DNA of 20,381 nucleotides from a virus: positions 1 through 20,381 of the IMG/VR virus record IMGVR_UViG_3300009528_000156; one strand, 5' to 3'. Shown here one piece after another: positions 3,153 to 20,269 of the stretch (its first letter is position 1; the number at the start of each line of letters is the position of its first letter). The notes beneath the pieces were generated by a model. That model had not been told where the DNA came from, ran no database searches, and saw nothing but the letters and a program-made list of their open reading frames with translations. Position numbers and translations under genes: made by a program.

Positions 3153-3164
3153 GGAGAATTGAAA

Positions 3165-3728
3165 ATGAGAAAACGAATTGCATTAGTAATTTCTCTGGCT
3201 GCGATTTTGATGTTCGCAATGATGGTTGGAGAACAAGATGTCACCAGTGCTGAAAAGCCTAAGGGCACAACGTACTCAAGCGCTTTTAATTGGACAGTGA
3301 TTATCGACAGTAGTGGTACTGGCATCGTCTATGACACTACCATAACCACCAGTGGCGGTGGCAAGATATTCTATTTTCGTGGTCTTGAAAATTATAGTTC
3401 GCTAAACGCAGCGATCTACGTTGAAGTGACCAGCTTGGATACTGGTGATGCCGCCGCCGATGTACCTGATACCACCAAAGACTCAATGTTGGTACAGATA
3501 TATGCTGGCTATGGAGGTACTTCATGGTATCGGAAGATATATCAGGATTCGCTTATGAAGGCATCATCGGCAGGAGATACGTTGTACATACCACTCTCTG
3601 ATTCTATAGGTGCGGCGGATCGAGTGTGGTTTGAATTCATTACATCAGTGGCAGATACTGATCATACTGTAGCAGCACAGAGTGCCGGTATTCACTATAA
3701 AACCACTGTCAGAATGGTTGCTAAATGA
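3165..3728 (+). CDS. Predicted exported protein between portal and protease genes
   Basis: I placed the start at the ATG at 3165 because AAGGAGA (3151-3157) sits eight bases upstream; a TTG at 3159 is in frame but badly spaced. The 187-residue product opens with a clear Sec-type signal peptide: MRKR, a hydrophobic core of about 17 residues (IALVISLAAILMFAMMV) and a polar region with probable cleavage after VTSA (about residue 29). The mature part is Ser/Thr/Asp/Gly-rich with alternating beta patterns and no cysteine, as in a beta-sandwich. The position between portal and prohead protease would suit a head protein or decoration protein, but those are cytoplasmic and lack signal peptides. An alternative is an envelope protein made late in infection, such as a superinfection-exclusion factor. 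No family recognised; function unknown. Its stop overlaps the start of an 18-codon leader frame. Confidence 0.75.
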   Translation: MRKRIALVISLAAILMFAMMVGEQDVTSAEKPKGTTYSSAFNWTVIIDSSGTGIVYDTTITTSGGGKIFYFRGLENYSSLNAAIYVEVTSLDTGDAAADVPDTTKDSMLVQIYAGYGGTSWYRKIYQDSLMKASSAGDTLYIPLSDSIGAADRVWFEFITSVADTDHTVAAQSAGIHYKTTVRMVAK

Positions 3729-3781
3729 TGAGTCCATTAGAACATATTGAGGCCAGGGTGGTTGCTATGAATGCCAGTTGA
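3725..3781 (+). CDS. Leader mini-ORF upstream of the protease-capsid gene
   Basis: An 18-codon frame starts at the ATG at 3725, overlapping the stop of the exported-protein gene (ATGA). It ends at TGA 3779-3781, just inside the next gene, whose ATG is at 3771 in another frame. The peptide is MMSPLEHIEARVVAMNAS, and the IEAR part is encoded by copy 2 of the junction repeat. Its likely role is to carry ribosomes across the gap to the 3771 start, which has only AGGGTGG as a Shine-Dalgarno-like sequence. It may also be the shrunken remnant of a former gene. A stable product is doubtful. Confidence 0.3.
   Translation: MMSPLEHIEARVVAMNAS
3747..3758 (+). repeat. Junction repeat TTGAGGCCAGGG, copy 2 (before protease-capsid gene)
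   Basis: Exact 12-base copy ending 12 bases before the ATG at 3771, nearly the same spacing as copy 1 to the portal start. It is read as IEAR in the 3725-3781 mini-ORF. The AGGG-TGG stretch may serve as ribosome-binding site for 3771. Confidence 0.6.
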
Positions 3782-6083
3782 AGAATCAGATGATTACATC
3801 GAATTTCGTGTAGCTGCTCCTTCTGCCTACGGCAAGATTGTAGGTAGCAAATGGCTCGATGAAAAGAAGAGTATCTTAGCACGAATTGCTAAGAAACGAG
3901 AAGGCTCCGGCACTCTCATATCTCATATTTTATTCAACAAAAAAAAGGGTTGGACAGAGAGCAAGGCCAAAAAATGGCTCAAGGATCACGATTACACGAT
4001 CAAATCTATTGAGGCCAGGGGAGATCATGCCATACCAATGGAATACAAATATCTTGTTGCACCTTTGTCTAAATCGGTTGAACAAGATTCTGATAATAAA
4101 TGGGAACTGATTATTGAGGCGATGGTATCCACGCCTGATGTAGATCGAGGTGGTGATGTTACATTGCCTACCGCTTTCGCCAAAACCATGCCGGAATTTA
4201 TGAAAAATCCGATTATGTTTTTCAACCACAATCCCATGCTGACCGTTGGGCAAGTTCTTGATTATAAGATTGGTGAGGACGGATTGTGGATTCGTGGTGG
4301 TATCGATGGCGGTACACAGGCAGGTAAAGAGACCGCCCACTTGATTCGTTCGAACATCATCAAATCAATGTCTTTTAGTTATCGGATTATCGAAGCTGAG
4401 GCTGGAAAAGATGGCGATCCTTTCACCATCAAAGAACTCGAAGTCTTTGAAATCGGGCCGGTATCTATTCCCATGAATACACAGGCTCTTATCGAAGCAG
4501 CTAAAGCTCAAAACATTGAACTAAAATCGTTAACAAGTTCCTCTGAGGCCGGGGGACAAATTACAGAAGGAGATCACGTCATGGAAGAAAAAGAAGTACG
4601 TGATATTGTAACTTCCTCTGTGACACCGGTCGTGGAGGATACTGAGAAACAAGGCGTCAAGATTAGTGAAGTCGGTAAGAGGATTGATGAGGTCGTCAAA
4701 CTTCAGACCGAACTGAAAGACGCAAGTGACAATGGCAAGAAAACCACCGGCGAACTCCGGGAATTGATCGACAAAATGACTGGAGAATTCAAGAAAGCCG
4801 TAGATGGTTTAACAACCGAAGTCACCAGAATTCAGAATCAGAAACGGATTGATACGATGGAGCCAATGGCAACATCAATGAAGGATTTGATTAAGATGGA
4901 GCCATTAGAGGTTCAACGTCTTTATCCTAAGAAGGCTGCGCTCGTAAATGAATTGCAAAAATCCAACGATAAAATTCTGATTCTGGATACACTCCTATCG
5001 GCGGCTTCTCATACTGCTGGCGGAAGTTATCACATGACTCCATTGGCTGAACGAATCAAATCGTTTGGTGAATTGGGGAAATTTGAGGAATTCCGAAAAG
5101 CCTTAGATACTGCAACTACAACCGAAGGCCTCGAGCTTGTACCGACAGAGTTGTCCGGTCAAATCAAAGAACTGATCCGAATCGAACTGAAGGTGGCAAA
5201 TCTCTTTGAAGAGCTTCCGATGCCGACCAAATCCTATGAAGTCCCGATTGAAACCGCTGATGTATTGGCTACTTTACAAGGCGAAAAGACCGCTATTGTA
5301 TCGACTTTTGATTCGACTGAACAAGACCCATTGAGTCACAAGTGTACTCTGACCGCTAAAAAGGCACGGGCACGTATTCAGGTTTCAGCAGAGTTGACTG
5401 AAGATGCTATCTTCCCAGTCATCCCTTGGCTAAATCGCCATGCCGCACGTGCCATCGCTCGCTCCGTAGATCGTGCCATCGTCAATGGTGATACCAGCAC
5501 AACGCATTTTGACACTGGTCATACTGTCGGTTCAAGCGATTTCCGTCGGGCCTGGAAAGGTCTGAGATATCATTACAACACCACTATCAAAGCTACACTT
5601 GGAGTGGATATCTCAGCTTTATCCGAAGACCTGCTGCGTGAAATTCGCCAAAATATGGGGAAGCATGGTATGTATCCCAACGATCTGGCTTGGCTTTCCA
5701 GCATCAAAGGATATCTCGGAGGTTTCTTGCGTAAGCTGGATCAAGTTCAAACTCTGGATAAATATGGGCCGAAAGCAGTCATCCTGAGCGGCGAACTCTC
5801 TAAGGTCGATGGTATCCCGAATATCGTGACGGAATTTATTGAGGATGTTCTGGATGCTGATGGTCTCTATACGGGTACTGGTAATGCAGCCTCAGAGATA
5901 TTGCTTGTTAATCGTTTGGCTTGGGTGCGAGGTAGCTATCGTGACATTACGTTGGCTATCGTTCCCGATCAAATCAATGACGTTTTTACGGTTGTTGCTT
6001 TCAAGCGATGCGATTTCCAACCCTTCTGGGTACCATCAACAACTGAAGTCGCCGTGAATGCTGGACATAACCTATGCTTCTAA
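3771..6083 (+). CDS. Prohead protease-major capsid protein polyprotein
   Basis: This single 770-residue frame joins three parts. Residues 1-82 form an accessory domain with EFRVAAPSAY near the start and KGWTESKAKKWLKDH (59-73), a helix often seen at the front of phage head proteases. Residues about 90-250 match a U35-type prohead protease (PF04586): TPDVDRGGDVTLPTAF (121-136), the histidine of FFNHNP (H153), the serine of KSMSFSY (S201) and the FEIGPVSIPMN strand. Residues 271-770 are an HK97-fold capsid protein. Its N-terminal part (271-360) is a charged, heptad-like delta/scaffold region, and the shell core is recognisable from GLELVPTELSGQI (about 453) onward. The protease would remove the delta region during maturation. 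M271 (4581) has its own Shine-Dalgarno sequence, so free capsid protein may also be made. A repeat copy lies at each domain junction. Confidence 0.9.
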   Translation: MPVEESDDYIEFRVAAPSAYGKIVGSKWLDEKKSILARIAKKREGSGTLISHILFNKKKGWTESKAKKWLKDHDYTIKSIEARGDHAIPMEYKYLVAPLSKSVEQDSDNKWELIIEAMVSTPDVDRGGDVTLPTAFAKTMPEFMKNPIMFFNHNPMLTVGQVLDYKIGEDGLWIRGGIDGGTQAGKETAHLIRSNIIKSMSFSYRIIEAEAGKDGDPFTIKELEVFEIGPVSIPMNTQALIEAAKAQNIELKSLTSSSEAGGQITEGDHVMEEKEVRDIVTSSVTPVVEDTEKQGVKISEVGKRIDEVVKLQTELKDASDNGKKTTGELRELIDKMTGEFKKAVDGLTTEVTRIQNQKRIDTMEPMATSMKDLIKMEPLEVQRLYPKKAALVNELQKSNDKILILDTLLSAASHTAGGSYHMTPLAERIKSFGELGKFEEFRKALDTATTTEGLELVPTELSGQIKELIRIELKVANLFEELPMPTKSYEVPIETADVLATLQGEKTAIVSTFDSTEQDPLSHKCTLTAKKARARIQVSAELTEDAIFPVIPWLNRHAARAIARSVDRAIVNGDTSTTHFDTGHTVGSSDFRRAWKGLRYHYNTTIKATLGVDISALSEDLLREIRQNMGKHGMYPNDLAWLSSIKGYLGGFLRKLDQVQTLDKYGPKAVILSGELSKVDGIPNIVTEFIEDVLDADGLYTGTGNAASEILLVNRLAWVRGSYRDITLAIVPDQINDVFTVVAFKRCDFQPFWVPSTTEVAVNAGHNLCF
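4009..4020 (+). repeat. Junction repeat TTGAGGCCAGGG, copy 3 (between accessory and protease domains)
   Basis: Exact 12-base copy inside the polyprotein frame, read as IEAR at residues 80-83, at the border between the accessory domain and the protease. GGGGAG followed by ATC and an ATG at 4027 looks like a ribosome-binding site and start, but that ATG is out of frame and its frame closes at 4110. The first in-frame ATG is 4038 (M90), about where a stand-alone prohead protease would begin. Confidence 0.55.
4543..4554 (+). repeat. Degenerate junction repeat (CTGAGGCCGGGG), copy 4 (between protease and capsid domains)
   Basis: Differs from the 12-base repeat at two positions and is read as SEAGG (about residues 258-262) in the polyprotein. 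It lies 26 bases before the internal capsid start at 4581. Its position at a domain junction parallels copy 3. Confidence 0.4.
4566..4583 (+). promoter_or_regulatory. Internal ribosome-binding site and in-frame start of the capsid domain
   Basis: AGAAGGAGATCACGTC precedes an ATG at 4581. The AAGGAG core is about nine bases upstream, one of the better Shine-Dalgarno matches in the window and better than that of the full-length start at 3771. The ATG is in frame (residue 271) and begins MEEKEVRDIV, exactly where a capsid precursor with its delta domain would start. It would yield a 500-residue capsid protein in excess over the protease fusion. Confidence 0.6.
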
Positions 6084-9005: not shown

Positions 9006-10055
9006 ATGGCTATAGATATTAGAACACCAAAAGAAAAACGGTATGGAATTGTTGAGCAAGCGACATGGGGCACAATTATGGTCGATACCAGTGTCCTTGA
9101 TAATGGCACGACCAATAATGGTGTGCAACTCGACATCGATCCGTTTACAATCAATCCCGCAGTGAATATCCGTGAAGGCCGACAATCAATAGGTACTCGC
9201 CGACCGTTTAGTGGTTCTCGGACACATGACATGAAAAGAGTAGCACCACTGATTTCTCTACCGGCATTCGAAGCCAAAAAGGATGAACTTGATCTGTTCT
9301 TATATGCTATAATGCAATCTGTTGATGAATCAGATACAACCCCTTTTCTGAAGACCTATACGATCGCCGATACTCAACCGGATTTCAGTGCCGATGCCGG
9401 ATTCTTTATGACTTTCTGGGAGCGGTTCCCAGCTAGTAGCACAAGCCGTGTTATCAAGGATGTAATAGCTAAAGCCTTAACACTATCATGCGAACCCGGT
9501 GGACGATTGATGCTGGCTGGAGAACTTATCGGACGGGGTGCTATGGGACAGAATGCAAACCCTACGGGTGATTGGTCACGAGCGGATAGCGAAAATACGG
9601 ATTATTTCTTCTGGGAAGATATTACTCGTTTCACCTGTGATTTCGGTTCTGGTCCCGTTGATCTCCGGCCAAGCGGAGCTTTTGAATTCACATTAGCCCA
9701 TGATGCTCTGCCTTATGGCAATGATGGAACTGGTGAGTTCGAGATATTCGCCATTCGCAATTGGCAGCTTGGTCTGAAAATGATAATCGGTGACGATCTG
9801 ACAGCCGTTATCAGGAATCAATTTGAATCAGCGCATAAAGATGGTACGGTCTGTACCGTTGAGATCGGTTGGGGAACTGCTACACCAGCCGCTGATGGTG
9901 ATCTTGAAATCACCTGTGAAGTTCAATTCACTGATGTCGTTCCCGACAGCGCTGATATTTTGGGTATTGAGGTCACTGGACAAATCGTTACAGACCTTAT
10001 AACGGACAGTCCAATAACAATAATTTTGGTGAATACCGTAGATAGGACATGGTGA
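9006..10055 (+). CDS. Major tail tube protein
   Basis: The ATG at 9006 follows the preceding stop directly, and GGAGG (8995-8999) lies seven bases upstream, as expected for a highly expressed structural gene. The 349-residue protein is almost all beta. It opens with RYGIVEQATWGT and has an early NIREGRQSIGTRRPFSG loop region, aromatic strands (TFWERFP, YFFWEDITRFTCDF) and a repeated strand pattern to the end. This fits the long siphovirus tail tube proteins, which stack as hexameric rings around the tape measure. Position directly before a G/GT chaperone pair and the tape measure gene is the most decisive evidence. The size is above the usual 150-250 residues, so a C-terminal extra domain (about 240-349) is possible. 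Confidence 0.8.
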   Translation: MAIDIRTPKEKRYGIVEQATWGTIMVDTSVLDNGTTNNGVQLDIDPFTINPAVNIREGRQSIGTRRPFSGSRTHDMKRVAPLISLPAFEAKKDELDLFLYAIMQSVDESDTTPFLKTYTIADTQPDFSADAGFFMTFWERFPASSTSRVIKDVIAKALTLSCEPGGRLMLAGELIGRGAMGQNANPTGDWSRADSENTDYFFWEDITRFTCDFGSGPVDLRPSGAFEFTLAHDALPYGNDGTGEFEIFAIRNWQLGLKMIIGDDLTAVIRNQFESAHKDGTVCTVEIGWGTATPAADGDLEITCEVQFTDVVPDSADILGIEVTGQIVTDLITDSPITIILVNTVDRTW

Positions 10056-10058
10056 TTT

Positions 10059-10532
10059 ATGCCGTTAAGATTGATTGACCCGAATCACACGAAGATAATC
10101 GAGATTGCGGGAACGAAGATTCATATCCGCAGCATGACGGCTGGCCAGCAGATGCGATTGGGTTTGTTATGGCGACCTGAAAAAGTCATGGCTTCTGATG
10201 ACAAAGATAAATTGGCTACTGCATTCACGGAGAAGATGGTCGCCAATTATGAGCAAGTGGCGGAAGCGATAGCTCCAGCTATCGTCAAGATCGAAGGCTT
10301 TGAATCTCAGCCAATACTTGAAGTCCTTCTCAATATGGCGGACATCTCTGATTTTATGCAACTTATGACAGAGATAATGGAGTTCTCAAGTCTCTCGGAA
10401 TCCGAATCAAAAAACTTATCCTCCTCGTTGGATACCTCGGCAGCAATACCGGCGAGGAAAGGGAAAGACGGACAAGCTGTGAGTCATGCTTCAATCAAAA
10501 AGGACTCAAATGTTTCGGCGAAGACGAACTAA
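10059..10532 (+). CDS. Tail assembly chaperone, G-like (zero-frame product)
   Basis: The 157-residue protein begins with a small beta domain (KIIEIAGTKIHIRSMTAG), then a helical domain (about residues 45-115). This is the usual plan of siphovirus tail assembly chaperones, which bind the tape measure protein and recruit tube subunits. After residue 119 the sequence becomes Ser/Lys-rich and low in complexity, as expected for a zero-frame tail that overlaps a second coding frame. The slippery heptamer A AAA AAC at 10409-10415 spans the codons for K118 and N119. Ribosomes that slip back one base there would continue into the frame ending at 10882. It starts three bases after the tube gene; a clear Shine-Dalgarno sequence is lacking (AGGACATGGTG is nearest). 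Confidence 0.75.
   Translation: MPLRLIDPNHTKIIEIAGTKIHIRSMTAGQQMRLGLLWRPEKVMASDDKDKLATAFTEKMVANYEQVAEAIAPAIVKIEGFESQPILEVLLNMADISDFMQLMTEIMEFSSLSESESKNLSSSLDTSAAIPARKGKDGQAVSHASIKKDSNVSAKTN
10409..10415 (+). promoter_or_regulatory. Predicted -1 ribosomal frameshift site (A AAA AAC)
   Basis: The heptamer A|AAA|AAC is in the exact X|XXY|YYZ phase relative to the 10059 frame (TCA AAA AAC TTA). The -1 frame is open from 10352 to 10882, so slipping here gives a fusion of 119 + 155 = 274 residues. Six bases downstream, TCCTCG (10422-10427) can pair with CGAGGA (10453-10458), with an inner CGG/CCG pair, as a possible stimulatory hairpin. The geometry equals the lambda G/GT system. A GGGAAAG at 10461-10467 is out of phase and is not the site I favour. 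Confidence 0.75.
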
Positions 10533-10549
10533 CAGTACACGCCGTCAAC

Positions 10550-10882
10550 ATGCCGACGGTGAAAGTATATAAGAATGAATGGTTTAAAATTGTCGAAACA
10601 GCCAGAGCCGAACTTGGAGAACGGCTGCCGATCGATAGGGCACTCTGGTTATATTCCCTGTGTCCGGTGTCCCTATTTACTCCGTTGTCTATTGAACTAT
10701 GGAATCTGTACCAATGCCTTGAAGGAACGAAACGACTTAGAACACCAAGCGAATATTACACTCAGCCCGCAATTTGGAGCATGGGATGCCAAATCATTGA
10801 TCGGGAGCTGGCACGCATAGAACAGGAACGACAGAGAGATGGCGACAAGAAAAGAAAATATCAAGCTGACAATATCCGCTAA
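10550..10882 (+). CDS. Tail assembly chaperone, GT-like frameshift extension
   Basis: The ATG-defined frame is 110 residues, but it is open back to 10352, and the ATG at 10550 lacks any Shine-Dalgarno sequence. I therefore read it as the T part of a G-T fusion entered by -1 frameshifting at 10409-10415. In that reading 45 extra residues precede the ATG; they include SCESCFNQKGLKCF, a cysteine cluster that looks like selected coding sequence, unlike the zero-frame tail. The ATG-defined part is helical (VETARAELGERLPIDRALWLY; IIDRELARIEQERQ) with SIELWNLYQCLEG in the middle, and ends with a very basic tail. In lambda the T domain binds the tape measure protein. The last 44 bases overlap the tape measure gene. 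Confidence 0.7.
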   Translation: MPTVKVYKNEWFKIVETARAELGERLPIDRALWLYSLCPVSLFTPLSIELWNLYQCLEGTKRLRTPSEYYTQPAIWSMGCQIIDRELARIEQERQRDGDKKRKYQADNIR

Positions 10883-12602
10883 GGATAAAGCAAGCAGTAA
10901 GCTCAGTAGCGTTCAGAAAAAGATAATTGGTATCGGTGCGGCTTATCTCGGTTGGAAGGCTATCACAAGTATAATATCTGGTATTGTCCAAGCAGGAATT
11001 GAACACGAAAAAGTCTGGACGGATGTAGAGGCTTCTCTTAAACGTCACAATATTGCGGTAGAGTCGACCATAGGAAGCATCAAGAAATTCTCCGATGAGA
11101 TGCAGACGCTATCTGGTATCTCCGATGAAGTCATTGGTAAAGCGACTCAAACGTTCATTGATTATGGTCAGGATGCGGCAGGTGCAATGGATACCGTTCG
11201 TGTTGCTATGGATTTGGCTGCCGGTGGTAGCATGGATTTGATGGCTGCTGTTGATCTTCTTGCTAAGGCCTCTGTCGGATATACGGGGACATTATCTCGC
11301 TATGGTATTATCATCGATGAAAATATTCCCAAAGCCGAGAAGTTTGCGGCTGCTATTGAGCAGATCAATGAACGCTTCGGTGGAGCTGCTCAAGCCAGAG
11401 CGGAGACGATGGCAGTTAAAATGGCACTCGTGGGTCAGAAGTTCGGCGATCTCAAAGAGGAATTATTCAAGCTGTTTTCTCCGACTCTTTTCGTGGCGGT
11501 AGAAACTGCAATCAACTGGGTTAACAGTTTTATGACGGTCGTAGATAGTCTTCAAGATGTTGTGGATTCTCTCTCGGGTAAATTAGATTTCTTCAACCAA
11601 AATATGATGGATATTGGCGATAGTTCGAAGAATGTTTATAATGAGATTCTATTATTAAATGCCGAATTGGTGGAATTGGAATTACATGCAGCGACACTCA
11701 CCTATACTTCACTTGCTGATTTACGTTTCGGAATAGAAGATGTCGGAGCGGCGGCGACTGATGCGACAACTGTCATACAATATGGTCTGAATATGTCGAG
11801 AGGGGAATGGAAAAAGACTGCTGAAACAGTTAAAGAAACAGTAGATGAAATACGAGGACTAACGGATATACAAATCGAATTTCTATATAGTATTGTGAGA
11901 GCACATGAGGAAACATCTGAAGTTATAAAAACTAAAAGTAGAGAACTAACAGATGCACAAATTGAGTTTCTCTATGAAGTTCAAAGGGCACATGAGGAAA
12001 CGGCAAACACCGGAAAAGAAACAACACGAGATTTAACGGATGCACAAATAGAGATGATATACGATGCTGCCGTTATCATGACTTCTACTTTTGGCCATTT
12101 CGCTCATCGCATTGTCGAGGAAGGTTTTAACGCACACATAAAACTGCGTGACATATTCAAACGGATGGCCAAAGATTTCGCTCATTATTTTATCGATGCA
12201 GCCATGAAAGCATTGGCTGGATTTGTCGCTAAATTTTTGCTGACATTAGCGCTCTTTGATAGAGCCGCCAATGACCGTATGGCTATACAACAAGGACAAC
12301 ATTTTGCACAGTTTTTCAAGCAGGGTGTGATGAACGAAATGAATGGATATGCCTTTCCGACTATGCTTACGAGTAGCCCGATGCCTGCAATAGCCTTCGC
12401 CGGTGGTTCCAGAAGCCAATTCCCTTCTGCCGGAATACAAGTGACTGTGAATGTAAACGCACCTATTACATCGGATCAGTTCATAGATTTTGTCGTGCAT
12501 GATATGGCACCGATCATCGAACGTGCATCAGAATTGGGGCAGACCAGAATAGCTATTGAACCTTTTGTGCTGACTGGAGATAGCGGTGTCATCATTACTT
12601 AA
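10839..12602 (+). CDS. Tape measure protein
   Basis: The protein of 587 residues follows the G/GT pair, as the tape measure does in almost all siphoviruses. It sets tail length and travels down the tube during ejection. The N-terminus (ISAKDKASSKLSSVQKKI) has the classic opening of these proteins. A long helical body follows: MQTLSGISDEVIGKATQTFIDYG, then MDLAAGGSMDLMAAVDLLAKASVG and YGIIIDENIPKAEKF, all familiar tape measure elements. A repeat region at residues about 341-410 comes next, then a hydrophobic segment (AGFVAKFLLTLALF, about 455-470) and a Gly/Ser-rich C-terminus with VTVNVNAPITSDQF. At about 1.5 Angstrom per residue, 587 residues would fit a short tail near 90 nm. No lysozyme or peptidase domain is visible. 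GAGAG at 10832-10836 is the only nearby ribosome-binding signal. Confidence 0.88.
   Translation: MATRKENIKLTISAKDKASSKLSSVQKKIIGIGAAYLGWKAITSIISGIVQAGIEHEKVWTDVEASLKRHNIAVESTIGSIKKFSDEMQTLSGISDEVIGKATQTFIDYGQDAAGAMDTVRVAMDLAAGGSMDLMAAVDLLAKASVGYTGTLSRYGIIIDENIPKAEKFAAAIEQINERFGGAAQARAETMAVKMALVGQKFGDLKEELFKLFSPTLFVAVETAINWVNSFMTVVDSLQDVVDSLSGKLDFFNQNMMDIGDSSKNVYNEILLLNAELVELELHAATLTYTSLADLRFGIEDVGAAATDATTVIQYGLNMSRGEWKKTAETVKETVDEIRGLTDIQIEFLYSIVRAHEETSEVIKTKSRELTDAQIEFLYEVQRAHEETANTGKETTRDLTDAQIEMIYDAAVIMTSTFGHFAHRIVEEGFNAHIKLRDIFKRMAKDFAHYFIDAAMKALAGFVAKFLLTLALFDRAANDRMAIQQGQHFAQFFKQGVMNEMNGYAFPTMLTSSPMPAIAFAGGSRSQFPSAGIQVTVNVNAPITSDQFIDFVVHDMAPIIERASELGQTRIAIEPFVLTGDSGVIIT
11859..12065 (+). 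repeat. 87-bp tandem repeat inside the tape measure gene
   Basis: Two full units (11859-11945 and 11946-12032) and a partial third (from 12033) recur at exactly 87 bases, that is 29 codons. The protein units begin LTDIQIEFLY, LTDAQIEFLY and LTDAQIEMIY; the first two both contain RAHEET. Because the period is a multiple of three, gain or loss of a unit would lengthen or shorten the tail ruler without changing frame. The stretch is noticeably more A-rich than its flanks, with AGA and ATA codons. Confidence 0.85.
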
Positions 12603-13371
12603 ACTCTATACGACGGGAAGCATGGAGAAGGCCGTGTGTCTTAACGCAACATCCGAGGCTGCTGGTTATCCCAAAGAGAATGTCTTGGACAACAATCTTG
12701 ATACTTATTGGAAGCCGACCAGTAGTGGCGATAAATGGATCGACTTTGATCTCGGTGAAGATCAATTGATTGCGATGTTCATAGTATTTTTCAAGAATTA
12801 CAAATCTATTACGGATGGCGGTATAACAGCACGATGGTCAGACAATGGTAGTGATTGGACATATCAAACCCCCGGATTAGATGCGGCCGACATAACAACA
12901 CCACTGAGGGTACACAAATGGACTGCTATATCACATCGTTGGTGGAGTCTTAAAATCGCTGTTACTTCAGTCATAATCGAAGTGGCTGGAATTTGGTTTG
13001 GTCAATTATTCGATATTAATCAGGGAAATGAATATCCAGAAGCCGATGTTGACCGGTTCTATAATCGTATAGCACAATTACCCGGCGGACGGTTGGGAAT
13101 AGCTGGCATCAATAGAAACTCATCACGTGTAATTTCCCGCAATTATTTATTCTCTGGCGTGACTGAATTTGACAAGCTCCGCAATGCTTTCCTCGATAGT
13201 GCCGGTAGGCGATTCCCATTGGTTCTGAATGAAGGTTCTGCTCAAAGTGATGCTTTTTTGGTGCGTTTCGCCAATGATGAATTTGCCGAGAATGAAACGG
13301 ATTATCAACTGTTTCAACCATCAATATCCTTCGTTGAGTTGCCCTACATTGATAACGGAGATTCGTACTAA
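12586..13371 (+). CDS. Distal tail-type protein with discoidin-like (F5/8 type C) domain
   Basis: The start is the GTG at 12586, inside the end of the tape measure gene; a downstream ATG at 12622 is an alternative. The 261-residue protein follows the tape measure, the usual place for the distal tail protein that joins the tube to the hub. Residues about 15-150 match the F5/8 type C (discoidin) pattern: ATSEAAGYPKENVLDNNLDTYW (16-37), KWIDFDLGEDQLI, ITARWSDNGSDWTY and WTAISHRWWSLKI. Such domains are beta-sandwiches that often bind glycans. The second half (RFYNRIAQLPGGRLG, LFSGVTEFDKLRNAFLDS) resembles a distal tail ring domain. The stop overlaps the hub gene start as TAATG. A role in adsorption to surface sugars is inference. 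Confidence 0.7.
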   Translation: MSSLLKLYTTGSMEKAVCLNATSEAAGYPKENVLDNNLDTYWKPTSSGDKWIDFDLGEDQLIAMFIVFFKNYKSITDGGITARWSDNGSDWTYQTPGLDAADITTPLRVHKWTAISHRWWSLKIAVTSVIIEVAGIWFGQLFDINQGNEYPEADVDRFYNRIAQLPGGRLGIAGINRNSSRVISRNYLFSGVTEFDKLRNAFLDSAGRRFPLVLNEGSAQSDAFLVRFANDEFAENETDYQLFQPSISFVELPYIDNGDSY

Positions 13372-15497: not shown

Positions 15498-15791
15498 ATG
15501 TTGAACAAAAACGGGATATACAAGTTGGCTACACGAATACTTGCTGGTGCTCTCATCCTCTTTATCGGCTGGTTTGGGAATGAGGTTTGGAGCAAGCAGG
15601 AAACAACAAGTCAGACGAACGTTGAACAGGACGTTAGTCTGGGGGTGCTTCAGGAGCACATTGAGGCGGTCGATAAAACTGTCCAGCGAATAGAGAGCTG
15701 CTTGATAGAAGATCGAATCTACAGAAGACAGCGGGATTCGATTCTCATGGATGTGGCTATTAAAGTGAATCTCATGTTCGATGGTAGATGA
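15498..15791 (+). CDS. Membrane-anchored coiled-coil protein (possible lysis-module protein)
   Basis: The ATG at 15498 is well placed behind TAGGAGA (15486-15492). The 97-residue protein has one hydrophobic span (about residues 12-27, RILAGALILFIGWFG). A charged helical region (about 48-85, LGVLQEHIEAVDKTVQRIESCL) with heptad-like spacing follows. A single N-terminal anchor followed by a helical domain is the plan of inner-membrane spanins and of some holin-associated proteins, but no family motif is evident and no partner outer-membrane spanin or endolysin lies in the window. The stop overlaps the fibre gene start (ATGA at 15788). Membrane location is well supported; lysis role is only a possibility. 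Confidence 0.65.
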   Translation: MLNKNGIYKLATRILAGALILFIGWFGNEVWSKQETTSQTNVEQDVSLGVLQEHIEAVDKTVQRIESCLIEDRIYRRQRDSILMDVAIKVNLMFDGR

Positions 15792-18700
15792 ACGCTATGA
15801 AAAAGATTATTATATTTATTCTCTTAGTTCTATGTGGGAGTATATCCACAAATGCTCAAAGTATTCCCCGAATATTTTGGGATGACATTGATGATTCTAC
15901 GGTTGTCTTGCGATTCGGACGATACCGGATAGAATTGCAGGAAGGATCAGATATCCTTTGGATAAGTGCAGGAGGTCTTTATTGGGAATCTGCAACGGTC
16001 TTGGATTCAACTCTTTTTGATAGCATTCATGATGGGTTGGGACGGTTTTGTGCTTTAATAGATTCAGGTAGAATAATTGATTCCAGCCTTTCTCTCGATG
16101 ATTTGAACTGGGAGGGTGGCCTTACCGATAGCAGGATAGACAGTCTTGATCCCGATAAATTGGAACAAGATGGTGCCACAACCGGTCAACCACTTGAGTG
16201 GGACGGTAGTAAATGGGCACCGGGGACAGACAATACTGGGACTGCATCTTTAGAAGATGTGTTTAATTTCATGCACCCCGACATTTTCGATACGACTGGA
16301 TTCAACGATTCCATTGGGATAAAGGCTAACGGAATTACTGATGGGATGGTAACAGATGCTCTTACTGTCACAGGCTATGCACCTCTGGCTTCCCCAACTT
16401 TTACGACAGACATCACGACTCCGCTTGTAATTGGTGGAACGGCAACTACATCTGATTTGTCCCTAAAGACAACCTCTGGTGTCGGGGAAACTGGCGCTGA
16501 CATGCACTTTCTTGTGGGAAACAATGGTGCCACAGAAGCTATGACGATACTGAATAATGGGAATGTTGGAATTGGTACGATAAGTCCGAGTGAGAAGTTA
16601 GAAATTAATACAGGAAAACTTAAATTTTCAGGAGTAAGTCAAAGTGCGGGATGGCATTCCTACGAAATGGCAATGTTTCTGAACAGATTGACATTATCCG
16701 GTGATGTTTATTTCTTTAGTTCATCTTATTCTGGCAGTGAAGGTTTTATTTGGAACTCAACTAATAAGAGAATAGGTATTGGGACATCGGCACCAAAAAA
16801 TGCACTTGATGTGGAGGGTGCTGCGGTAATAGGGGCAGCATATTCTGGAACAAAAGTAGCACCAAGTAATGGTTTGTTAGTGCAAGGCACGGTAGGTATT
16901 AGTACGAACGTTCCACCCCAAGCCCTCTCAGTCGTGGGTAACATTGCTACGGGGGATACTGCTACGGGGGATGTTGACGTTTATCACTATTTCAGCACTA
17001 ACGGTTCTTGGACTACCGAGTATTTTAAGTGGGATGATGGCAATTCAAGGTTCGAGGTTAGTGATGATCTTGACGTGACGGGGAATATCACAGTGACAGG
17101 GACGGTGGACACGGTTGATGTGGGCGTTCTGGGGGCGACCGTACCTAAGATCACCGACGATACTACTGATTTTAAGACAGCCTTCGGCTGGGGCGACCAC
17201 TCAGCGCAAGGATACCTCAACACTCTCATCGGAGTCTTTGCCTACTTTGACCGGACATATTTTGACACCGTGATAGATGCCAGTGGTGACTCAATCGTCT
17301 GCATCTATTCGGACTCGACTGATCTGAGCATATTCGACACGGACGATCTGGCTGAGGGTTTTAACAAATACGATAAAGCATTGCCAGATAGCAGCGAATG
17401 GAGTGAGGCTTACGACAGCTCACAGGTAGGATACTTGAATCCGGCTGACGCCAATGTGGACACTGCCCACTGGAATGCCGCTTGGGTGTGGGGCGATCAT
17501 TCAGGGGAGGGATACATCACCAATTCTAAACTCAGTGATTCCAGTATAACACTGCTTAACGCAACGGCATGGCGATTGTTTTACAGCAATGCTACCACAA
17601 CGGCGATTCAGGAATTGGCTCTTGGGAGTGATGGGACTTACCTGAAATCCAATGGAGCCAGTTCAGCACCGACTTGGGCTACTCCTGGTGCCGGCTTATC
17701 TTACTGGACGGAATCGGATGACAACGATACTTCGGTGTTCACAGCAACAGCACCAAATACAACCGTCGGCTTTAGTGACAATCTGACGATGCAGGGAAAT
17801 GACATCATTGGAGTGGGGATGGTTGACGGCACCGATGTTTCTATGCTTAAGGACACTGTAGATGAATGGGACAACCGTGGTTATCCCGATGCTTCAACAA
17901 CAGAGAAGGGGATTGCTTCGTTTTCCTCTGGCAATTTTGACGTTACCAGTGGCGAGGTTTCGATTAAACTTGATGGTATTGATTATTTAGACATAAAAGC
18001 TGGTGCTGTTCGTGAATCTGAGCTTGCGACTAATGCGGTTACTCTCGGTAAAATGGCCGATAACTCTGTAGGATGTGATGAGCTTGGTGCAAATGTTGTC
18101 CATGAATCTGAGCTTGCCAGCATTGGTGATGTAGCCGTTGATGAAGATATTGTAACTTTTGAAGAAACCGGGAACAAATTTGAATACCATACGCCCGCAG
18201 AGTTAGGTTTAGCTGACACAAGTCGAATTTTGCTAACAGATAGAGCTGATACGAACACTGGTGGAATTGTAATGAGCGGTGCGAATATCTCAATGGCTGG
18301 GGCTGAGACAGTAGATGACATAGACATCTCAGAGTTCCATTCCGACTACGCTACGGACTCCATTAAGTTGTATGGTATTGAGTCTGGAGCTACCGCCGAC
18401 CAGACGGTTGTAGACTCGGCTCTAAAAGTTGACACGACTGCCTATACGAATGTCTGGGTGCATGAATCTGGGGATACAATGTCAGGCAATTTACATATGA
18501 ACGAAAATAAAGTTACTGGATTGCCGACGCCAGTGGATGATGGTGATGCAGCATCAAAAGGTTATGTCGATAGCAAAGGTATAGCTGATACTACTACACG
18601 GAGCCTATTCGTCAGTGGAACAATAGAAGGTACAGGTGAACTTGCAATGTGGAATTATCGACATGATCTTGATACGAGCCGTGTTTGGGCACCGAATGCT

Positions 18701-20269
18701 GATACGTTTGCTCTGATACCGATCCCTGAAGCCTGTTGGACATTGAATGATTCAAATAGATGGTGTGCTGGGCATCCTGGTGTGATTTTTGCTCCAATGG
18801 GCCGCTTAGGTTATCAAGAATGGATGGTTATGACTCCATTTGATGATAGCTGCAACGAAGATGTTTGTATTAGAGTTAAGAATGTAACAGATACAAGTTG
18901 GAACCTTTTTATCAGTGGTACAGATACCATAGCTGATCCTATTTTTGAAGAGAGTGATCTTGATGCAAGTTATTTGTCTGATCCTGATATGTTTTTTACG
19001 CATGATGGTAAAATTGGCATTTTGATGAGAGCAAAATATACACTTGGCGATAGCGTTAAAATATGGCTTGCCGTCAGTTCCGATGGTCTTAGTTGGGATA
19101 CAACCAGCATTCTCTCCGATAGTATTCTTGGCTTTGCTTCTGCCCACGAGTTTTTGTCACCTTCTATTATCCTTGATACTAATGGTACTTACACGATTTG
19201 GGCTGTTGAATCGAATGGTTATGCTGAAGGCGATGAGAATACAGTTGTAATGTATAAAGCACCTAAGTATGATAGTGGTTGGTATTTAATAGACACAGTT
19301 GATTGGGAGGCGCATAGTCCTGGTTTGGCTGATATATGGCATATAGATGTTTTACCTTATGGCCCTGATCAGTTAGTTGGTATTGTTTATGAATGTGACG
19401 AAGATGCGGGAGGTACGGGTACTCAACAAGGTGATTTATATTTGTCGCTTAGTTCGGATGGTGGAAATACTTGGACAACTCGGAATACACCCTTTTTAAG
19501 AGATGCTGGTTCTGGTTGTTGGGATGGCGATTATCTATATCGTGCCAGCGGTTATTGGATTGAAAGCGGTTCAAGAACACAAATGGCTCTTTACTACGGT
19601 GGCTTTGGTGGCGCAGGAAGCCATGATCGTCATACTGGATATACGGTGGTAACTTTTGGGGATACAACTCTTGCAGTTTACTATTGGAATCTTACTTATG
19701 ATTCAGTGCAGGCCTGGAAAAACAGTGCCCGCTTTATGGAGAATTCTGGCGACACAGTAACGGGACGTTATGATCTTGGTGGGGCAGTGCTGGAGATTCC
19801 GAACTCGGACAATCCAACTGTTGACGCTGATGGTGAAACCGCATGGGAAAATGATGACAACTGTCTTCGAACTTGGGATGGTTCAGCTAACAGAGCGATT
19901 TCGACAGTGAAATTCTTTTCGGCTACAATTTTCAATCCAGAGCTTGTGCAGGATACGATTGATGCTCTTGCCATTTTGCCAGTCGAACCTGAATGGGCAC
20001 CGTTTGGCATAAAGCTACTTGATGTTGGTATAAAGACTGATGCCGCTTCGACTTATTCTGTGAACTTTGAAGAGTGGACTTCGCCAACCGATGGCTCTCC
20101 ATCAACGATCGAGACTGTGGCGACATCGTCTTCTACAGAAGCCGAAGATGACGGCACTTTGACTGATAGTGATATTGCTGCCGGTAGCATCATCTATATT
20201 GACTTGCCCGACACAGATATAAAGATGCTTCAGGTATGGGGCACCTACTACATAGTTACCGGAGACTAA
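15788..20269 (+). CDS. Tail fibre/receptor-binding protein with signal peptide and Asp-box beta-propeller
   Basis: This 1493-residue protein is the largest gene here. The ATG at 15788 overlaps the preceding stop; a second in-frame ATG at 15797 gives MKKIIIFILLVL. Either start yields a Sec signal peptide with likely cleavage after STNA (A23). Three G-x-V/I-G-I-G/S-T repeats (near residues 258, 328 and 367) follow, then WGDHS at 468 and 568, RESELA/HESELA repeats, and the fibre motif GDTMSGNLHM (895-904) ending in KGYVD. Residues about 940-1300 form a probable beta-propeller of glycosidase or sialidase style with Asp boxes SSDGLSW (1097) and SSDGGNTW (1222). The C-terminus has LEIPNSDNPTVD and a beta-rich end domain. 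It probably binds or trims surface glycans. A signal peptide on a virion fibre is unexpected. Confidence 0.8.
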   Translation: MNAMKKIIIFILLVLCGSISTNAQSIPRIFWDDIDDSTVVLRFGRYRIELQEGSDILWISAGGLYWESATVLDSTLFDSIHDGLGRFCALIDSGRIIDSSLSLDDLNWEGGLTDSRIDSLDPDKLEQDGATTGQPLEWDGSKWAPGTDNTGTASLEDVFNFMHPDIFDTTGFNDSIGIKANGITDGMVTDALTVTGYAPLASPTFTTDITTPLVIGGTATTSDLSLKTTSGVGETGADMHFLVGNNGATEAMTILNNGNVGIGTISPSEKLEINTGKLKFSGVSQSAGWHSYEMAMFLNRLTLSGDVYFFSSSYSGSEGFIWNSTNKRIGIGTSAPKNALDVEGAAVIGAAYSGTKVAPSNGLLVQGTVGISTNVPPQALSVVGNIATGDTATGDVDVYHYFSTNGSWTTEYFKWDDGNSRFEVSDDLDVTGNITVTGTVDTVDVGVLGATVPKITDDTTDFKTAFGWGDHSAQGYLNTLIGVFAYFDRTYFDTVIDASGDSIVCIYSDSTDLSIFDTDDLAEGFNKYDKALPDSSEWSEAYDSSQVGYLNPADANVDTAHWNAAWVWGDHSGEGYITNSKLSDSSITLLNATAWRLFYSNATTTAIQELALGSDGTYLKSNGASSAPTWATPGAGLSYWTESDDNDTSVFTATAPNTTVGFSDNLTMQGNDIIGVGMVDGTDVSMLKDTVDEWDNRGYPDASTTEKGIASFSSGNFDVTSGEVSIKLDGIDYLDIKAGAVRESELATNAVTLGKMADNSVGCDELGANVVHESELASIGDVAVDEDIVTFEETGNKFEYHTPAELGLADTSRILLTDRADTNTGGIVMSGANISMAGAETVDDIDISEFHSDYATDSIKLYGIESGATADQTVVDSALKVDTTAYTNVWVHESGDTMSGNLHMNENKVTGLPTPVDDGDAASKGYVDSKGIADTTTRSLFVSGTIEGTGELAMWNYRHDLDTSRVWAPNADTFALIPIPEACWTLNDSNRWCAGHPGVIFAPMGRLGYQEWMVMTPFDDSCNEDVCIRVKNVTDTSWNLFISGTDTIADPIFEESDLDASYLSDPDMFFTHDGKIGILMRAKYTLGDSVKIWLAVSSDGLSWDTTSILSDSILGFASAHEFLSPSIILDTNGTYTIWAVESNGYAEGDENTVVMYKAPKYDSGWYLIDTVDWEAHSPGLADIWHIDVLPYGPDQLVGIVYECDEDAGGTGTQQGDLYLSLSSDGGNTWTTRNTPFLRDAGSGCWDGDYLYRASGYWIESGSRTQMALYYGGFGGAGSHDRHTGYTVVTFGDTTLAVYYWNLTYDSVQAWKNSARFMENSGDTVTGRYDLGGAVLEIPNSDNPTVDADGETAWENDDNCLRTWDGSANRAISTVKFFSATIFNPELVQDTIDALAILPVEPEWAPFGIKLLDVGIKTDAASTYSVNFEEWTSPTDGSPSTIETVATSSSTEAEDDGTLTDSDIAAGSIIYIDLPDTDIKMLQVWGTYYIVTGD
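17189..17515 (+). repeat. WGDHS fibre repeats 300 bp apart
   Basis: Codons for WGDHSAQGYL (from 17189) and WGDHSGEGYI (from 17489) start exactly 300 bases apart, meaning 100 residues. The DNA is diverged between them. Such WGDHS-x-x-GY units recur in tail fibres and probably mark equivalent turns of a trimeric shaft. Confidence 0.55.

Follow-up and report, generated by a model that had tools for sequence, protein, structure and literature searches.

Positions 10059-10882 of the viral DNA analysed here very probably encode a tail assembly chaperone pair of the G/GT type, in which a predicted −1 frameshift at the heptamer A_AAA_AAC, read from the sequence and its relatives, would join the short protein G to a longer G-T fusion. 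The window, i.e., the whole stretch of 20,381 bases, is a complete virus record assembled without an isolate and possibly represents only part of a genome. It carries a head-tail module composed of a portal fused to a MuF-like domain, a protease fused to the major capsid protein, a head-tail adaptor, a neck protein, a tail terminator, the tube, G, T, the tape measure, and minor tail proteins. The G/T pair thus sits between the tail tube and tape measure genes. In long-tailed dsDNA phages, the −1 frameshift between G and T is widely conserved; G binds the tape measure and T recruits the tube protein (PMC5009743). The features of the region, several of them shared with the nearest relatives of the window, L101 and L102, are the following:

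9006..10055, + strand, tail tube protein (match to Pfam Phage_tube_2 at E=0.0011, short of the curated cut-off; homologues at the same position in L101 and L102)
10059..10532, + strand, G, putative tail assembly chaperone, zero frame, 157 aa (open reading frame; phrog_344; AlphaFold2 model; homologues in L101 and L102)
10409..10415, + strand, slippery heptamer A_AAA_AAC (exact zero-frame phase; same heptamer, also in phase, in every T relative found)
10415..10882, + strand, T, −1 frame extension, 155 aa after the shift (homologous to L101 and L102 T from the first residue)
10422..10458, + strand, hairpin 10422-10431 / 10449-10458, likely frameshift stimulator (same place in L101 and L102)
10533..10549, + strand, gap from the G stop to the first T-frame ATG, without Shine-Dalgarno sequence (anti-SD scoring)
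10839..12602, + strand, tape measure protein, 587 aa, overlapping the T 3′ end by 44 nt (phrog_991 tape measure, E=9e-7)
Junction peptide of the predicted G-T fusion: SESESKNLILLVGY

The initial annotation had read this region as a −1 frameshift producing a G-GT tail chaperone fusion, and this reading is supported by the homologous loci, by a T lacking a start, and by synteny. The heptamer that it placed at 10409-10415 is in exact slippery phase, the zero-frame codons being AAA (10410-10412) and AAC (10413-10415). Our check of the stop-free span also showed that the −1 frame is open from 10352 to 10882, and the two products have the announced lengths, i.e., 157 residues for the zero-frame ORF (10059-10532) and 274 residues for the G-T fusion, whose predicted junction joins ...SESESKN to LILLVGY. 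The overlap of 180 bases holds as a stop-free overlap; as a functional overlap, from the heptamer to the G stop, it amounts to 124 bases. Within G, the stop-free run of the −1 frame (10352-10532) reaches 60 codons and tops every run in the 15 other window genes compared (593 runs, of 9 codons on average and 55 at most). When the overlap was scored by codon usage, the −1 frame was not clearly favoured. In-phase slippery heptamers are by themselves common (12 in 20 window genes), and we therefore give weight only to the combination of features and to their conservation.

We propose that most ribosomes would translate G (157 aa) up to its stop at 10532 and that, in a minority of them, the tRNA-Lys and tRNA-Asn on AAA-AAC (10410-10415) would slip back by one base onto AAA-AAA. 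This slippage would be helped by the hairpin at 10422-10458, and the slipped ribosomes would read on in the −1 frame as far as 10882, producing the 274-aa G-T fusion. If the pair works as in lambda, the tape measure protein, encoded by the next gene, may be coated by many copies of G, and the few copies of G-T may recruit the tube subunits, encoded by the previous one. The slippage and its efficiency, like the roles as chaperones, are our inference; the heptamer and its phase, the open −1 frame, the position of the hairpin in three members, the homologous T without start, and the synteny come from sequence and comparison. The predicted frameshift, in an undescribed phage lineage, is well supported; its mechanism is a textbook one and the case ordinary in kind. 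As in lambda G/GT, the predicted −1 shift lies toward the 3′ end of a small gene flanked by the tube and tape measure genes and would yield a short G and a longer G-T. In lambda-type pairs, the fusion is a product of low frequency, the ratio of G to GT is critical for the assembly of the tail, and virions contain neither protein. In contrast to lambda, the window site is A_AAA_AAC, the window hairpin is clear, and the window G and T have no lambda-like family match.

When G or T alone was used as query, direct searches returned no relatives in viral contigs or phage genomes, because these two proteins evolve too fast; portal relatives were looked for in genome contigs and none were found. Relatives were reached only through capsid alignments, which led to L101 and L102. 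In these two loci, nearly all the tail-module genes tested are homologous to those of the window, and T aligns with the window T from the first residue at the shift site (tblastn E-values of 3e-16 and 9e-9), stands in the −1 frame relative to G, and follows an in-phase A_AAA_AAC. Profile searches added L112/L113, L110, L111, and L114/L116/L119. A further relative, L200, comes from a genome sharing its phylum with a candidate division GN15 MAG that has a capsid relative of its own; this locus lies in a bacterial genome, and its G stop, UGA, directly follows the heptamer. Altogether, A_AAA_AAC in phase with T at −1 was observed in the window and in seven distinct relatives (L101, L102, L112/L113, L110, L111, L114/L116/L119, and L200). 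For L114, L116, and L119, the script, open to any X_XXY_YYZ heptamer, found AAAAAAC in all three cases. Over the 101,023 codon positions of the long ORFs in these loci, A_AAA_AAC occurs in phase at a rate of 6.

Across these relatives, identity to the window is 17-35% for G and 11-33% for T, and, for the T of L110 and L111, position and motif argue for homology to the window T more than the score does (first-round E of 0.1-0.5). A long gene directly follows T in L101, L102, and all the profile-linked relatives except L112. In L101, L102, and L110, this gene has matches to tape measure profiles (at 5e-82 in L110). Hence, the alignment of homologues that had been suggested as a check showed that the relatives keep the heptamer, its phase, the shift direction of −1, and the order G-T-tape measure despite the divergence. 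Aligning eight G proteins left only three columns invariant, M1, K118, and N119, which correspond to the start methionine and the two slippery codons. The codon preceding the latter varies (TCA, GAA, GCA, AGA, TTA) and always ends in A. Given the amino acids and the codon use of each of seven loci, the joint chance of an A-ending codon followed by AAA and AAC is 10^-8.8, a figure which overstates independence, three of the seven loci being related to each other. Moreover, AAC represents only 6-9% of the Asn codons in L110, L111, and L114, yet it is kept at the site. This constraint on the heptamer beyond the amino acids suggests that it is the heptamer, rather than the protein, that is under selection. 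The shift site itself would be strongly selected, the slip codons being the only invariant part of G besides its start methionine.

Several other loci came up during this survey. EBPR siphovirus 6, considered as a relative on the basis of a tape-measure match, has no G/T pair at that place and was rejected. More distant loci present other candidate heptamers, i.e., AAAAAAA, CCCAAAG, CCCAAAC, and GGGAAAC. In related contigs (L144, L150, L153, L156-L158, L164, L170, L171, and L177), AAAAAAA is the putative heptamer just before a −1 overlap. In a distant phage (L008:8668-9362), a G/T-like pair has its T in the −1 frame after nine A's (AAAAAAAAAG), a run long enough for transcriptional slippage as an alternative. 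Finally, a tail module related to that of the window stands beside pntAB-like genes (L201:6724-12642) on a 3.7-Mb bacterial contig (G116) from the phylum of the GN15 MAG; no head module was seen on that side, and about 120 bases of its G region read N.

Downstream of the heptamer, the initial annotation had proposed a 6-bp stem at a distance of 6 bases (10422-10427 with 10453-10458). The stem is present at this spacing and proved to be longer: 10422-10431 pairs with 10449-10458, forming 10 bp, including two G-U pairs, with an energy of −15.2 kcal/mol. About 1% of the 45-nt windows in the record reach such an energy, and the 45-nt shuffling test gave a modest signal (z = −2.3; 5 of 200 shuffles as good); fold tests of 85 nt and 70 nt gave no significant z for the window. 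The L101 hairpin has 12 bp, a 6-nt spacing, and a z of −5.1, and that of L102 has 10 bp and a 5-nt spacer, so a hairpin is found at the same place in all three GC-rich members. No downstream hairpin was detected in the AT-rich relatives L110, L111, and L114, and it is therefore an accessory element, not a universal one. Between the window and L101, the hairpin arms show only pair-preserving differences, one pair being changed on both sides, a covariation which, with three sequences, would prove little. By eye, the loop GCAGC could also form a pseudoknot with GCTGT near 10476.

We then have to consider how else T could be produced. As first annotated, ATG 10550 has no Shine-Dalgarno sequence: among the 21 candidate starts scored, only this ATG and the in-frame GTG 10559 have no predicted pairing with the anti-SD of the 16S tail. 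It had also been described as the only ATG of the downstream frame; it is the first one, and the sequence contains another at 10781. It is very unlikely that T is a separate gene beginning at ATG 10550 (or at GTG 10559), possibly through ribosomes that re-initiate past the G stop, with the overlap and the heptamer being incidental. The ATG lies 17 nt past the G stop, a distance that permits termination-reinitiation; however, besides the absent Shine-Dalgarno sequence, the 45 T codons upstream of this ATG are homologous to L101 and L102 T and contain a conserved Cys, so that a start at 10550 would remove a conserved segment, and the 60-codon open overlap exceeds all others in the window. The relatives already contradict such an independent start: the first ATG, GTG, or TTG of T occurs 56, 65, 49, and 69 codons past the shift in L101, L102, L110, and L111, respectively, and a T lacking a start over 49-69 codons could hardly be made except by frameshifting. 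An automatic annotation would probably overlook the fusion and present T as an independent gene of 110 aa beginning at ATG 10550.

The same fusion would arise if the polymerase slipped on the A run and added a base to some mRNAs. Transcriptional slippage on A runs is known in bacteria, and runs of 6-7 A's exist at the site; however, such a run is short, the phase and the final C, which polymerase slippage does not require, are fixed in every relative, and the hairpin stands at the ribosomal spacing, and we consider this explanation highly improbable. A single gene split into two frames by an assembly indel could be imagined for a record assembled without an isolate and with a homopolymer at the junction, but it is already excluded, to near certainty, since contigs of other samples, assembled independently, and a bacterial genome show the same two-frame layout.

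Coming back to ribosomal frameshifting, A_AAA_AAC is weak in E. coli, where it is much less shift-prone than A_AAA_AAG (PMC5009743), and the strict use of AAC rather than AAG in this lineage is a small oddity, mildly surprising. Both tRNA-Lys(CUU) and tRNA-Lys(UUU) are encoded in the genome holding L200, which belongs to the phylum of the GN15 MAG; the presence of tRNA-Lys(CUU) would remove the reason for the slipperiness of AAG in E. coli. Because this genome has both tRNA-Lys, and because AAC is kept where it is such a rare Asn codon, one may tentatively imagine, as a rather doubtful possibility, that the shift codon is tuned to the host tRNA set, AAC being kept since the tRNA-Lys(CUU) of the hosts makes AAG non-slippery; the tRNA data are those of the genome of L200.

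Regarding the identity of the proteins, the window G matches the tail assembly chaperone family phrog_344 weakly (E=0.0017); neither G nor T has a confident match among curated families, and T matches no family. The G of L110 matches the tail assembly chaperone profile phrog_313 at E=1.5e-8. In the AlphaFold2 model of G, a mostly ordered domain extends to residue 118 and residues 119-157 are disordered, which places the shift at the domain end. The T model (pLDDT 61) was too poor for structure search. With G, Foldseek returned no PDB match at E <= 0.001, its first match being HK97 gp13 (2ob9; E 0.57, weak). The G model reached Z values of 5.0-5.9 for only three chains (2ob9, 3klu, and 5ir0), the next being at 3.2: HK97 gp13 (Z 5.0 over 86 residues, 4.2 Å), Bacillus subtilis YqbN (3klu; Z 5.9 over 91 residues, 4.6 Å), and 5ir0, a V. 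cholerae PICI-like protein of unknown function. At 9-12% identity to gp13 and YqbN, a fold relation of G to these two proteins is only suggested by the model. The BFVD matches of G are weak, and several of them are annotated as tail assembly chaperones. Taken together, the weak profile and fold matches, the position of the gene, and the stronger match of the L110 relative are consistent with the assignment of G as a predicted tail assembly chaperone.

Among known systems, Bacillus phage Silence (KT001912) presents the same gene order, an annotated joined frameshift product for its tape measure chaperones gp16/gp17, and a homologous portal; in contrast, its shift heptamer is CCCAAAG, and the phage records yielded no match to the window G or T. 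The g-t pair of the haloarchaeal siphovirus HCTV-2 is described as using A_AAA_AAC as its shift site too (PMC5009743); its host is archaeal. The window adds a phage lineage to the known range of the G/GT frameshift: no isolate was found for it, its proteins have almost no detectable similarity to known chaperones, and relatives are present in genomes from the phylum of candidate division GN15.

Other observations concern the rest of the module. The head maturation protease and the major capsid protein form one 770-aa ORF (3771-6083; phrog_80, phrog_617/phrog_10); L021 has a similar 688-aa ORF, and in L068 the two ORFs are separate. The tail protein adjoining the tape measure (12586-13371) contains an F5/8 type C domain (Pfam E=1.7e-8) and has homologues in L101 and L102. 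Several proteins of the structural module start with apparent secretion signal peptides (3159-3728 and 15788-20269; e.g., MKMRKRIALVISLAAILMFAMMVGEQDVTSA; MNAMKKIIIFILLVLCGSISTNAQ), and similar signal-peptide-like starts, odd for phage virion proteins, are present in the related loci L021:7916-8554, L008:5071-5544, and L201.
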